Part shown: positions 6,325 to 11,054 of the stretch, piece by piece
Layout of the letters: the number at the start of each line of letters is the position of its first letter
Numbering within the stretch: the first letter of the stretch is position 1
Source: Aeoliella straminimaris
GTDB lineage: Bacteria > Planctomycetota > Planctomycetia > Pirellulales > Lacipirellulaceae
DNA length: 64,000 bases
Reading direction: 5' to 3'
Assembly: GCF_024054565.1 (NCBI RefSeq)
Contig: NZ_JAMXLR010000062.1
Span: 62,001 to 126,000, forward strand
Notes under the pieces: model-generated
What the model was told of the DNA's origin: nothing
The model's input: the letters and a program-made list of their open reading frames with translations, nothing else
Databases searched by the model: none
Program-made: the position numbers and the translations under genes

Positions 6325-7233
6325 CGCAATTTCGCTAGAGGCCGAACTCACATCGGTGATTTCAACCTCAGCAGGAAGCAAGGGGCTGCTTAAGTGCCTC
6401 AAGCAGCATACTCGACCCAGTAGACGCCACGGTCATCATGATGCAGCCGGGCGGATAAGCGCTACATCTGCGAGGCTGCCTGGAGAGGAGTGTGAGTTGC
6501 CGAGATAGAGCGATTGGCACCCGCGAGACCACTACGCGAAGCTTCTGGGGTATCGACGACCCGTGGTACTGGCGGAACTCGGAGCGCTGATGCATAGATC
6601 AGACCGCTGTGCTCCAAAATCTTTGTAGCGCTATCGCGACCTGCATGAATGATGTGATCAAGGCAATCTCATTCATCGTCGAATGACTGGTAAGACGGCA
6701 CGCGTCAATAACGGAATACGTTGTTGGTGCGCGACAGCAGATCCCGCAACAGTTCCGATCGAACACAACCGCAAACTTCCTATGTTACCGACGCCAAATT
6801 CCATCAAAAACTCCAGCGAGCGAATGTACTAAGGGTGCGGTGAAAGAAGGGGGGGTGGGCCCCCTCACCGAGCTAGCCGTTTCTTATGAGCAGCCACTTG
6901 TGCGGTCCGCATCCACTTTGCACTGAGCCGCGCGTCGGCCGCTCTCAATGCTTCAAGCAGTTCCCAAACGATCGCTAAAGAACCATCACACAGCGCGCAT
7001 CGTGCGTTCATGGTCACTAGTGTTTGTACATGGCCAATCGGAATTGATCACAACGAGACGCGACGCCGGCGCACCATTTTGAGAAACTGCGCGCTAACTG
7101 ATTGACAAGCAGCGATCGACAGAGTTATACGTGACGTCGATCGCTGCGCGCCGCGCGGCGCAAGAAGCGGCCCGGTCAAGTGCGTCAACACTCGACCGGG
7201 CCTAGGACACAACCTACATGGGAGGTTGCAGCC
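6325..7233. other. Long non-coding stretch leading into the mobile-element remnant
   Basis: About 900 bases with no gene I can support. A G/C-rich hairpin candidate lies at 6839-6869 (GGTGA and TCACC arms around a run of seven G and one of five C). From 7109 on there are stacked palindromes, listed separately. The left boundary of the decayed integrative element is probably within this stretch, but I cannot place it. Confidence 0.4.
7109..7202. repeat. Three stacked inverted repeats upstream of the ardC-like gene
   Basis: Within 94 bases there are three palindromic structures. First, a perfect 12-bp inverted repeat: GCAGCGATCGAC at 7109-7120 and GTCGATCGCTGC at 7136-7147, with a 15-base spacer. 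Second, a 14-base self-complementary sequence GCGCCGCGCGGCGC at 7148-7161. Third, a perfect 9-bp repeat: GGCCCGGTC at 7169-7177 and GACCGGGCC at 7194-7202. They end 31 bases before the ATG at 7234. Such clusters occur at operators, plasmid or element origins and transfer origins; which applies here is unknown. Confidence 0.7.
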
Positions 7234-8151
7234 ATGTCTCGTAATGTAAGCCGCTGCGCTGCGCGCAGCAAGTCGCGCCGCTCGGTCTACCAACTGGTAA
7301 CCGAGCAGATCATTGAAGCTTTAGAACGTGGTGTCGTTCCCTGGCGGCGGCCCTGGCGGGGGGAACAAGCAGCGCCTCGCAGCGCTACCAGCGACAAGCC
7401 CTACCGCGGCGTCAACGCGTTCCTGCTCGCCATGCAGGCCGATGCCCTGGGGCTCGAGAGCCCCTACTGGCTGACCTACAAGCAGGCTCAAGCATTGGGC
7501 GGCCAGGTCCGTCGGGGAGAACGGTCGACGTTGATCACGTTCTGGACTGAGTGGACTCCCAAAGAGCCCCGCGGCGAGAACGAAGCGCCGGGCAAGATCC
7601 CGGTGCTTCGCTACTACCAGGTGTTTCACGCCAGCCAGTGCGACGGACTCGGCGCCCGTTACACGGCCGCACCGGACACACCGGCCAACCCGTTCGAGCC
7701 GATCGAGCGGTGCGAAGAGGTCGTCCGCAAGATCGTGAGTGGTCCGCGGATCGAGTCCGCTGGCTTCTCGGCCTGCTACCGGCCGTTGTCCGATACGGTC
7801 CGCATGCCTGCCCCTGAGCGATTCGATACGCCGCAGGCCTATTACGCCACGCTGTTTCACGAGCTGATCCACTCCACCGGTCATCGCGACCGCCTGGCCC
7901 GCGCGGCGATCGTCGAGCCACAGCAGTTTGGCTCGGATCCCTACGGCCGCGAGGAACTGGTCGCCGAGATGGGCGCCGCGTTCCTGATGGGCCATTGCGG
8001 CATCGAGGCCACCACGATCGACAATACGGCCAGCTACATCGACGGCTGGCTGCGGGTGATCCGCGAGGATGCGCGGTTGGTGATCCAGAGCGCGGCCGCA
8101 GCCCAAAAGGCGGCGGACTGGGTGCTGGGCCGGAAAGGGGGTGAGGCATGA
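7234..8151 (+). CDS. ArdC-like protein: ssDNA-binding domain plus zincin metallopeptidase domain
   Basis: A 305-residue protein with the two-part layout of ArdC antirestriction proteins. The N-terminal domain (about 17-145) carries the ArdC signature: SVYQLVTEQIIEALERGVVPW, then YRGVN. The C-terminal part is a zincin-like peptidase with HELIH at 209-213 in the context FHELIHSTGH and a downstream REELVAE supplying the third ligand (E241). Family members are carried by plasmids and integrative elements and bind single-stranded DNA on entry to a new host; some block restriction. The ATG at 7234 is preceded by GGGAGG at 7220-7225. Its stop overlaps the start of the next gene (ATGA), so the two are one operon. 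It is probably cargo of a degenerate integrative element. Confidence 0.85.
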   Translation: MSRNVSRCAARSKSRRSVYQLVTEQIIEALERGVVPWRRPWRGEQAAPRSATSDKPYRGVNAFLLAMQADALGLESPYWLTYKQAQALGGQVRRGERSTLITFWTEWTPKEPRGENEAPGKIPVLRYYQVFHASQCDGLGARYTAAPDTPANPFEPIERCEEVVRKIVSGPRIESAGFSACYRPLSDTVRMPAPERFDTPQAYYATLFHELIHSTGHRDRLARAAIVEPQQFGSDPYGREELVAEMGAAFLMGHCGIEATTIDNTASYIDGWLRVIREDARLVIQSAAAAQKAADWVLGRKGGEA

Positions 8152-8807
8152 ACGCCGTTTGCCCATTGTTTGAACGGTATCGGCCCACCCGTTGGGAAGA
8201 TCTGGTCGGTCAGGCGAAGATCGTCCGGCGGATTGGCCGGCTCCAGGAGCGCGGAGGACTGGCGGGCCGCGCCTACTGGATCAGCGGTCAGTCGGGTACC
8301 GGTAAGACAACCGTCGCCCGGTTGATCGCCCAGGAGGTCGCCGATCCCTTGAACGTGGAGGAGGTCGACGCCACCGGACTGTCGGCGGCCGCCATCCGCA
8401 GTCTGGAGCAAGAGTCGCAGCTCTACGGGATGGGCCCGCTATCAGGGCGGTGTTACCTGGTGAACGAAGCGCACGGACTGAACCGGGCAGCGGTGCGGCA
8501 GCTGCTGACCACGCTGGAGCGGATCCCCGGGCACGTGGTGTGGGCGTTCACGACGACCAACGACGGCCAGGAGGGGCTGTTTGAGGAACTCGACGACGCC
8601 CACCCGCTGCTCTCGCGGTGCATCGAGCTGCCGCTGGCCCGGCGGGGTTTGGCGGAGGCGTTTGCCGAACGGGCCCGCGAGATCGCCATCCGCGAGGATC
8701 TCGACGGCCGGCCGCCCGCGGCCTATCTCGAGCTGGTCCGCCAGAAGCGGAACAACCTGCGGGCAGTGCTTCAGGAAATCGAAGCGGGCGCGATGCTGGT
8801 CGAGTGA
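8148..8807 (+). CDS. Clamp-loader-like AAA+ ATPase
   Basis: A 219-residue AAA+ protein resembling the ATPase core of DnaX and RFC small subunits, but lacking their C-terminal collar. It starts with the clamp-loader opening 'ERYRPTRWEDLVGQ', followed by Walker A GQSGTGKTT (47-55). The Walker B position reads CYLVNEAH (102-109), with asparagine N106 where DEAx is expected. Sensor 1 (TTTN, 135-138) and the SRC arginine-finger motif (156-158) are intact. It overlaps the ArdC-like gene by four bases. A mobile element might use it to load a clamp or remodel DNA during establishment; this is inference. A RuvB or DnaA-type helicase loader is less likely because of SRC. Confidence 0.8.
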   Translation: MNAVCPLFERYRPTRWEDLVGQAKIVRRIGRLQERGGLAGRAYWISGQSGTGKTTVARLIAQEVADPLNVEEVDATGLSAAAIRSLEQESQLYGMGPLSGRCYLVNEAHGLNRAAVRQLLTTLERIPGHVVWAFTTTNDGQEGLFEELDDAHPLLSRCIELPLARRGLAEAFAERAREIAIREDLDGRPPAAYLELVRQKRNNLRAVLQEIEAGAMLVE

Positions 8808-8933: not shown

Positions 8934-9197
8934 TCACTCGCGCGATTCCGGCACTCCGCACAACCGGACCATCGCCAGGATGCCCGCTTGCACTGCGTCG
9001 GGCAGGCCGCTCCAGGCGTCGATCACGGCCTGCAGATCGCTATCCGCGGCCGATAGCTCAAGCCGCTCGTCCTCCAGCGGACCGCCCACGGATTCGGCCG
9101 CTTCGTGGGCGTTTTCTGCTGGATTGGTGCAACCAGCGGTGCAACGCGGGTCGTTGGCTGGTTCTAAGTTGTTTTGGGAAAGCCGTTTAGAACTCGA
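8934..9197 (-). pseudogene. C-terminal tail of a tyrosine integrase (remnant)
   Basis: On the minus strand a reading frame ends at 8934 with 'DLQAVIDAWSGLPDAVQAG' followed by ILAMVR. I recognise this as the helical tail that closes many planctomycete site-specific integrases. The segment upstream in the same frame is only an antisense reading of the tRNA-Gly remnant (it gives the familiar GDGIRTRD artefact). No catalytic core (R..H-x-x-R..Y) is present, so this is a truncated end. It is consistent with an integrase gene abutting the attachment site, whose body has been lost. It could instead be a short independent gene of unknown function. Confidence 0.5.
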
Positions 9198-9252
<55 letters not shown>

Positions 9253-9386
9253 GACATAAACTTAGGCCGAATCAAGGCTTCTGATACCTGCCGGCGGTGG
9301 GCAGTGCGTTGTTTTCCCAAAGCGCAAAACGGTACATGCCGTTTTGGCAAACCCGGGAGGTTGCGCATTTGCCACGGTTCGCCAAT

Positions 9387-9790
9387 TCCGTCCCCAAGTA
9401 CCGCAAGCACAAGGCGTCCGGCGAAGCCGTGACCAAGCTAGGCGGTAAAGACTTCTATCCTGGTCTTCACGAGACAGTTGCCTGCAAACGGGACTGCGAC
9501 CGGAAAATTGCCGAGACTTGGGCTTCGAGTCGCCTCTCCCTGTATTTGGCGAGCCGGCTGAGGCTCTCACGGTCACTCGAATCGCTGTGGCCTGCTGGAG
9601 TACTGCTCAGGGCTACTACGTCACTTTTTCGACCAGTGAAATCCACCGCCTCGGCCCCCTGCTGAAGGCGGTTCGCAAGCCTTACGGCAAGGCATTTCCC
9701 GAACGATTCGGTCCAACAACATTCAACATCGTCCGACAGCATTTCATCGACGCGGGTACCTCCAGTGCCTATATCAATGCCAACGGCGCA
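9387..9790 (+). pseudogene. Frameshifted N-terminal part of a tyrosine site-specific integrase
   Basis: Two adjoining frames together match the start of planctomycete phage-type integrases. Frame one (from 9387) gives VPKYRKHKASGEAV, then GGKDFY and CDRKIAE, the opening beta-strand segment. Near 9515-9520 the similarity moves to another frame, which gives LPVFGEPAEALTV, then TSEIHRLGPLLKAVRK and FGPTTFNIVRQHFIDAG. That is the SAM-like core-binding domain. The pseudogene stops at about 9790, before any catalytic domain, and runs in frame into an IS3-type transposase fragment. It is therefore dead through a frameshift and a truncation. It lies on the opposite strand to the integrase tail at 8934. 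Confidence 0.65.
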
Positions 9791-9796
9791 TCGCCC

Positions 9797-9915
9797 GACT
9801 TCAGTCCACCAGGAAAGCCTACGGGTATCGCCTTGATTGAATCCTTCAATGGTGGGCAACGCGCTGAGTGCTTGAACAAGAACCGGTTCTTGTCCTTGGA
9901 GGATGCGCAGGAGTG
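9797..9915 (+). mobile_element. Fragment of an IS3-family transposase (orfB, rve domain)
   Basis: About 38 codons read 'FSPPGKPTGIALIESFNGG', then ECLN and FLSLEDA. This matches the last part of the integrase core of IS3/IS911-type OrfB, including the conserved PGKPT-N-A-IESFNG stretch and its final catalytic glutamate. Nothing else of the element (OrfA, the aspartates, terminal repeats) is visible. The fragment is joined in frame to the integrase pseudogene, so two unrelated remnants form one chimeric reading frame of 229 codons. It is non-functional. Confidence 0.65.
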
Positions 9916-9980
9916 CAGATTCGAATCCAGCAGGGCGTGCTCAGACCGGGGCTGCTTGCATTCTTTGGCGGTACCAAGTG

Positions 9981-11054
9981 TCAGTTGGCACGACGGTCCC
10001 CAAGGTCTCGATGGACTCGCCAATCGATGTCGTAGGTCATGTCTCGGACGCTGCCGTCGCAGAAGGCGACATTCCAGATGCCGGCATGTGCTGAGCCAAA
10101 CCGTCCCCAGGAGTCGGCGACGTCATTCGACGAATCGGGTATTGGCGTGCACTCTACGATTTTACCGCCGGAAACTCTTCCCGTCTTGCGATAGTTGTCG
10201 TTATTGAAACCGGTGCACCAGGTCTCGTTGTCGCCTTCGTCGAGGCCCGTTTCATAGTCCTCGTCAGAGATGTACTTTTCGCCTACTAAATAGGTGTTCG
10301 ACAGGCCGGCGGTCACTTGGCGAATCGAGACGTCGCTGCGTTCGTACGATATGCCATTCATCACTTGCCGATCTCTGATCTTATGATCAAAGGGTGCCTG
10401 GTCGATTCCCCAGTAAGAATTCGCCGTCCACACTCGAGCGTGCTCGTAACTTCTTGGTCCTCGCCCCAGCGCCGAAATTGGCCACTCGCAGTAGGCGTGT
10501 CCGGAGTTGACAGCGTAGTCGCTCCTGCCAGCGTAACGCGGGGTGACCGAATTGAAGAACCCATTGCCGCGCCCCGCGTTCGCGGTCATCGGGTAGAGGG
10601 CGTTTGCCCGCCGCGAGGGACAATTGATGATCGAAAGGGGGGTCTGAATGATCTGAGACGCTGCGATTCGCTGATTGCGAGTTAGCTTTTCTGGATCGCC
10701 GTCCGTAGTGGTGTCGTACAGCGTGTACTGCTCGAAGTAGGGCAGCGTATTGTAGATCCAGCCTCCTGGTTGATCCTTGCCAAAACCGCGATCGGCGTCC
10801 CCGGTCCAATACCATCCCCATCCACCGGTGGGAAAAGTGTTGTGCACATCGTGGTGACCGTGGCAGGCGATCGCGAGTTGTTTGAGGTTGTTCTTACACT
10901 GCAACAACCGGGCGGCTTCGCGTGCACTTTGGACCGCTGGCGCAAGCAACGACACCAAAACGGCCACGATGCTGATGCTGACCAACAATTCGACAAGCGT
11001 AAAGCCTGCGAAGCTTTGGAAGCAGCCACTGCGCGCGCGATCGCCGAAAATCAT
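9981..11054 (-). CDS. DUF1559 prepilin-like protein
   Basis: A 357-residue protein with a pilin-like N-terminus ([16 protein letters not shown] at about 16-31) and the DUF1559 signature ([24 protein letters not shown]). The C-terminal motif is [18 protein letters not shown]. It is a close relative of the DUF1559 protein at 13940: both share TGGWGW, DRGFGK-QPGGWI and [11 protein letters not shown]. The pair therefore arose by duplication and now flanks the sigma/FecR module. It lies 143 bases downstream of the FecR/LamG gene on the same strand and may be cotranscribed. It is exported as a pseudopilin; the function is unknown. Confidence 0.88.

Follow-up and report, generated by a model that had tools for sequence, protein, structure and literature searches.

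In this study, we propose that an ArdC-like gene and a gene for a collar-less clamp-loader ATPase form an operon of an integrated element in Aeoliella straminimaris, and that its translation is probably under the control of a cis-encoded antisense RNA of the SymR/R1162/PtaRNA1 type, with a burst of both proteins on entry into a new cell. The window, i.e., the whole stretch of 64,000 nucleotides that was analysed, corresponds to positions 62001-126000 of contig NZ_JAMXLR010000062.1 (C58 below); other coordinates are counted from its first letter.

The first gene (7234-8151, + strand) encodes a protein of 305 amino acids in which an ArdC-N ssDNA-binding domain and a zincin metallopeptidase domain were both found. 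The corresponding Pfam matches are far above the cut-off (ArdcN, 1.7e-36; MPTase-PolyVal, 2.2e-35), the zinc motif HELIH is intact, and the structure of R388 ArdC (6i89) matches the protein over its whole length (E 5e-54). Judged by these domains and the structure match, the product appears to be an ArdC-type ssDNA-binding anti-restriction protein. In the accessible part of the literature on R388, ArdC is described as an anti-restriction protein that binds ssDNA without sequence preference, counters HsdRMS and is needed in the recipient, and it is proposed to delay the copying of the complementary strand (PMC7213743). ArdC of R388/pSa has the same two domains over the full length as the protein studied here, whereas neither a clamp-loader partner nor antisense control is reported for R388/pSa in that part of the literature. 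No PADLOC defence model fits the locus.

The second gene (8148-8807, + strand), whose start codon shares an ATGA overlap with the stop codon of the first, encodes a clamp-loader AAA+ protein of 219 amino acids. Its best matches are PHROG 5846, a phage clamp loader (3e-29), and TIGR02397 (DnaX; 6e-19). The predicted fold (pLDDT 89) is that of clamp-loader domains I and II and is complete when compared to RFC domains 1 and 2 (2chg; TM 0.78/0.77). The AAA module with its SRC motif, sensor 2 and both domains is thus in place, including Walker A (GQSGTGKT) and the sensor-2 arginine, whereas the collar is absent since the protein stops after domain II. Domain III is missing as well in the planctomycete kin and in most of the phage kin. 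In addition, Walker B shows an exchange of D to N (VNEAH), and all planctomycete kin have N-E for D-E. Because it lacks the collar that assembles classical clamp loaders, the protein cannot alone be one in the usual way. It resembles DnaX gamma, the RFC small subunit and the PHROG 5846 clamp loaders in the fold of domains I and II, Walker A, SRC and sensor 2, but differs from them in the missing domain III, in Walker B and in its position away from host DnaX: in a tree whose deep-branch order is unsure, the planctomycete kin form one clade and the ArdC-linked phage proteins another, both apart from host DnaX. A tie to the clamp is therefore suggested at the level of the fold, and the N for D in Walker B counts against it. 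With the AAA protein as sole query, scans of genome contigs and viral contigs for close relatives gave almost nothing, and plasmid and phage records returned just generic DnaX-like matches, with about 35 percent identity or less among the matches listed. The profile, structure and fold matches bear out the ArdC-like and clamp-loader-like identities that the original prediction had given to both proteins.

The gene pair is located 0.4 kb from one end of an integrated island of 47 kb that is bounded by a tRNA-Gly repeat and of which the window carries only the last 9.2 kb. The repeat copy in the window (9202-9251, + strand) consists of the 3' 50 nt of tRNA-Gly(CCC) and is identical to C58:24258-24307, 47 kb away, which lies within the intact tRNA-Gly(CCC) gene (C58:24235-24307, outside the window). 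A tyrosine integrase (C58:24245-25969, - strand, outside the window), whose frame runs into this intact gene, adjoins the tRNA direct repeat at the opposite end of the island. ARAGORN did not accept a full-length tRNA at 9176-9247, and this sequence, a tRNA fragment, scores below the Rfam cut-off. The cargo comprises ordinary planctomycete genes, an AlbA/Schlafen protein and a type I R-M system; the genes for HsdM, an HsdS fragment, HsdR (other strand) and the AlbA_2/HATPase protein occupy C58:34453-42261, inside the island and outside the window. No conjugation genes were identified in the island. Just beyond the att copy, at 9297-10207, a frame resembling an integrase start (by eye, with no Pfam match) is found together with a broken rve_3 transposase.

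A close relative of the AAA protein is encoded in 5 of 294 planctomycete genomes, own genome counted. In three of the other four (G022, G120 and G247) an ArdC-like gene is situated directly 5' of the AAA gene; in G075, where the AAA gene is at a contig end, no ArdC was found. The AAA proteins of these three genomes are 43-45 percent identical to that of the window, yet their ArdC proteins belong to another subfamily (no significant BLASTP match to the ArdC of the window; Pfam ArdcN and MPTase weak), indicating that the partner is of a conserved type but of a different lineage. Two of the three have a serine recombinase 3' of the pair. An HsdR gene is present near the pair in G120 (L015:11293-14412), and a tmRNA gene (L006 297-627) near the AAA gene of G075 is a possible integration site of the element in that genome. 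Among viral sequences, nine distinct IMG/VR contigs have an ArdC gene adjoining a short clamp-loader AAA gene, in both gene orders. The two phage contigs that were read further both encode a terminase, and in one of them, G299, the pair adjoins genes for a replication initiator and DnaB. ArdC and a short clamp-loader AAA protein thus form a recurrent unit on planctomycete DNA and tailed phages. Across these genomes, the pair and its flanks were not found mainly in stable chromosomal contexts; the island with its integrase and att repeat, the serine recombinases in two relatives and the tailed phages agree with the mobile-element setting that had been predicted. In the literature searched, which left most subscription journals outside, no report joins ArdC or DUF1738 with a clamp-loader module; a single paper mentions the two, separately, for jumbo phages.

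Upstream of the pair, the original prediction had seen three stacked palindromes ending 31 bases before the ArdC-like gene, and the repeats, shuffled controls and ATGA overlap confirm this arrangement up to the overlapping 219-residue AAA+ protein. The last palindrome arm ends 31 bases 5' of the ATG at 7234. None of 300 dinucleotide shuffles of the 190-bp region contains two such stems, and just this one among the 336 190-bp tiles of the window does. The palindromes are nevertheless not one cluster, as had been supposed, but separate things. The outer one, a 12-bp perfect inverted repeat (7109-7120/7136-7147), extends over the spacer and -10 of a promoter-like sequence on the + strand, TTGACA (7102-7107)-18 nt-TATACG (7126-7131), which has 10 of 12 consensus matches and was missed by a stricter promoter scan whose rule demands T at position 6 of the -10. 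This operator-like repeat belongs to transcription. Its sequence is not conserved, and L014-L016 have another inverted repeat just upstream of the -35. Each of the four ArdC-AAA loci has a TTGACR motif 64-67 nt upstream of hairpin 1, and outside these loci the sense promoter is not conserved. The short GC palindrome GCGCCGCGCGGCGC (about 7147-7161) is seen in the sequence and is not conserved either. The inner palindrome, a 14-bp inverted repeat with one mismatch (7169-7182/7189-7202, - strand), is the stem of hairpin 1 and belongs to the leader or antisense RNA.

Hairpin 1 (7169-7202, - strand) exposes the loop CGTCAA on the + strand and UUGACG on the - strand, and would be the terminator-like 3' hairpin of the putative antisense RNA. 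Hairpin 2 (CAACCT-ACATGGG-AGGTTG, 7210-7228, - strand) holds the Shine-Dalgarno (SD) sequence GGGAGG (7220-7225), and its stem covaries in relatives. In the window alone, the sense minimum free energy structure favours a competing pairing, while the centroid shows most of hairpin 2. In G022, G120, G247 and the window, a hairpin is located from about 65 to 32 nt 5' of the start; the loop reads CGTCAA, CGCCAA or CGGCAA, so that CnnnAA is kept while the stems vary. A covariance model (R1) built from two distant loci of these three genomes, with the window excluded, found the remaining third locus and the leader of the window (E 1.8e-5 over 484 kb), no other ArdC locus, and further copies in planctomycete genomes. 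Its successor (R2) has the leader of the window in its training set; for both models, matches with E above about 1e-4 were excluded from membership. Both-sided changes occur in 10 of 17 pairs with 6 rows and in 15 of 17 with 18 rows (0 of 500 shuffles), in alignments that were fitted to the model and thus favour pairing, with slid controls dropping to 22-55 percent paired. We consider the segment 7166-7239 a well-supported RNA element, based on this covariation and on an architecture of two hairpins over the SD sequence and start codon as in SymR, R1162 RNA and PtaRNA1.

The element is not confined to ArdC operons. In Planctomycetota, R2 copies (L235-L282), nine of them in the single genome G191, precede large serine recombinases (L259, L277 and L278) and tyrosine recombinases (L261, L262, L264 and L282); the remaining genes starting at the end of a copy are this operon and a few unidentified or very short frames. 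Among the latter, the leaders of L235 and L280 are followed by very short frames starting with MAG.HP, either broken genes or small peptides. R2 matches are also found in 23 of 274 genomes of the class of G399 (Gammaproteobacteria), the best directly 5' of an ArdC gene and another 5' of RadC (L283 and L294). Many other copies in this class precede short uncharacterised ORFs (L286, L288 and L291-L293). In L291, int-alpA RNA (RF02996, above cut-off) occurs at 1858-1927, one small gene 3' of the SymR-like leader; it lies about 280 nt beyond the leader as a distinct element and was rejected as the identity of the leader. Neither the phage pairs nor the other planctomycete ArdC loci tested carry the leader. 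This distribution also bears on the idea that the palindromes are an ssDNA origin or a nucleation site for ArdC, which we regard as highly improbable: ArdC binds ssDNA without sequence preference (PMC7213743), but the conserved RNA element and the repeat at the promoter account for the hairpins, and the RNA element precedes genes unrelated to ArdC as well. The prediction that the pair is controlled or nucleated at the palindromes is hence retained in its first part, with control by the antisense-RNA or leader element and the operator-like repeat, and is not supported in its second.

Comparison with known RNA families shows that the element shares its architecture with known antisense RNAs. A short-range Rfam search of the window gave R1162 RNA in sense orientation and symR (6e-4), asX6 (3e-3) and PtaRNA1 (4e-3) in antisense orientation, all of them below curated cut-offs, with 29.1 bits against a gathering cut-off of 61 for symR (RF01809) and 24.7 against 47 for PtaRNA1 (RF01811). 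The element of the window thus works like SymR and PtaRNA1 in its architecture but is not filed in those families. One proteobacterial copy matches symR, R1162 and PtaRNA1 together. Conversely, R2 recovers the leaders of IncQ repA (43.6 bits), ptaRNA1 (21.4 bits) and E. coli symE (35.4 bits, E 6e-10), in each case precisely where the antisense gene is known to lie. The separately filed antisense or antitoxin families RF00043, RF01809, RF01811 and RF02239 appear to share one architecture, with the R1162 model on the mRNA strand and the other three on the antisense strand, and the three checked (R1162, symR and PtaRNA1) share one register of the antisense promoter.

SymR is a 77-nt RNA transcribed from a promoter inside symE and was shown by experiment to repress symE translation (PMC1891008). 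Like the RNA proposed here, it covers the SD sequence and start codon; its -10 (TAGAAT) is 7 nt before the start complement, and the symE leader hairpin (loop GUG-CGCCAA-CAC) has the same dot-bracket as hairpin 1 of the window. The symE gene also adjoins type I R-M genes, but it encodes an SOS-controlled toxin of AbrB fold instead of ArdC and an AAA protein. PtaRNA1 likewise lies over SD and start codon with its -10 (TAGGAT) 7 nt off, whereas its target is a small putative toxin and its R2 score is weaker. Since two of the three known relatives, SymR and PtaRNA1, are called antitoxins, the operon might be read as a type I toxin-antitoxin system, in which ArdC or the AAA protein would be toxic and the island would be maintained by addiction. 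Zincin proteases and replication ATPases can indeed be toxic. We find this reading quite improbable, as the same control precedes recombinases and IncQ repA, which are no toxins, and as R388 ArdC is an anti-restriction protein (PMC7213743).

In the case of the R1162/RSF1010 antisense RNA (IncQ, RF00043), the leader shares the CCUAACCA linker, the SD hairpin and AUGGCU, and the antisense -10 (TAGGCT) is again 7 nt off. Here, the RNA lies over the start of repA and governs the RepA helicase and the copy number of a free plasmid, unlike in the island. This parallel, together with the replication initiator and DnaB beside the pair in phage G299, would fit a pair that serves replication of the element under copy control, with the AAA protein as replication factor and ArdC as its ssDNA-binding partner. 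Such a role is somewhat unlikely in our view, given that the element is integrated at tRNA att sites and that no replication initiator was recognised in the subset of island ORFs searched.

The strand on which the element acts can be approached by two tests not built into the model, the position of the antisense -10 and the bias of wobble pairs. In 24 of 28 loci encoding unrelated proteins, an antisense TANNNT hexamer precedes the ATGGCT complement, by 7 nt in 20 loci and by 6 nt in 4, compared to a mean of 0.23 of 28 at other offsets and 1 of 20 control ArdC starts without leader. In the hairpin-1 region of 31 loci, 77 wobble pairs are antisense-only and 9 sense-only, and the region folds more stably as antisense in 26 of the 31; in the window, the antisense fold reaches -31.1 versus -25.9 kcal/mol for the sense fold. 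In the window, the candidate antisense promoter TTGCTG (7271-7266)-17-TACATT (7248-7243) on the - strand (7243-7271) lies inside the first ardC codons and has a weak -35. Its TACATT is out of register: compared with most copies, it lies 4 nt closer to the start codon, which is displaced by two extra bases. For the window itself, this shifted -10 is the weakest part of the case. Codon 2 of ardC in the window is TCT instead of GCT, and only a weak U-tract (GCUUCUUG) follows the terminator hairpin. Across the leader loci no conserved antisense -35 was found, and some copies break the YUNR U-turn rule in the antisense loop. Taken together, these strand signs, all read from sequence, point to an antisense gene. 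A leader acting on the sense strand only, in which a folded 5' UTR hides the SD sequence until a protein or signal opens it, is unlikely. It would account for the SD sequence inside hairpin 2, the loop CnnnAA conserved despite changing stems and the promoter-like TTGACR upstream in the four ArdC-AAA loci, but not for the conservation, in loci with unrelated genes, of an antisense -10 that the model does not include, for the 77:9 wobble bias toward antisense, or for relatives (SymR, R1162 RNA and PtaRNA1) that are themselves antisense RNAs.

Based on the antisense reading, we suggest the following mechanism. The promoter in the first ardC codons would drive a putative RNA of about 70 nt (7166-7239, - strand), complementary to the ardC leader, the SD sequence and the start codon and ending at the 7169-7202 hairpin. 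This RNA would pair with the mRNA leader, probably starting from the CGUCAA/UUGACG loops, and block ribosome binding; that such an RNA may block translation of the gene it covers follows by analogy from the work on SymR and R1162 RNA. In a settled host, a standing antisense pool would hold the operon low. A naive recipient has no such pool, and the mRNA would therefore be translated until antisense RNA accumulates, resulting in a burst of both proteins. We infer that the antisense RNA is made here and that entry is accompanied by this burst, which would suit ArdC as a protein needed in the recipient against HsdRMS. The ArdC burst would cover incoming ssDNA and protect it against type I restriction, while the AAA protein, at primer-template ends, would cooperate with the host clamp loader or compete against it and thereby allow the covered strand to be copied. 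It could supplement the subunits of the host loader or take their place, and so offset the copying delay proposed for ArdC, a guess that fits its fold and its neighbours. The term establishment module used in the original prediction would fit such derepression in a naive cell. The original interpretation thus stands for the protein identities, the mobile setting and control at the palindromes, whereas a SymR/R1162/PtaRNA1-type element, together with the operator-like repeat over the promoter, takes the place of the proposed origin or nucleation site for ssDNA.

ArdC, clamp loaders and antisense RNAs of the SymR/R1162/PtaRNA1 kind are already known individually. The literature searched, with most subscription journals outside it, contains no description of the recurrent pair, of antisense control over it, or of the distribution of this control across recombinase and ArdC genes in two phyla. 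The present analysis identifies ArdC and a clamp-loader ATPase as partners in a unit that recurs on mobile DNA, and provides this unit with a concrete, testable control. The occurrence of the same control before recombinases and ArdC in both Planctomycetota and Gammaproteobacteria suggests that RNA families named antitoxin and copy-control RNAs share an architecture and perhaps one task, that of distinguishing entry into a new cell from the settled state. More tentatively, as a possibility that falls somewhat short of probable, SymR, R1162 RNA and PtaRNA1 may be three known faces of one antisense cassette of mobile DNA that, in two or more phyla, precedes non-homologous genes for entry, namely serine and tyrosine recombinases, ArdC, RadC, RepA and clamp-loader operons. 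Such a cassette would serve as an entry sensor: a naive cell contains no antisense RNA, and the genes would fire once and then be silenced. The question of how mobile elements restrict establishment genes to the time of entry becomes directly testable.
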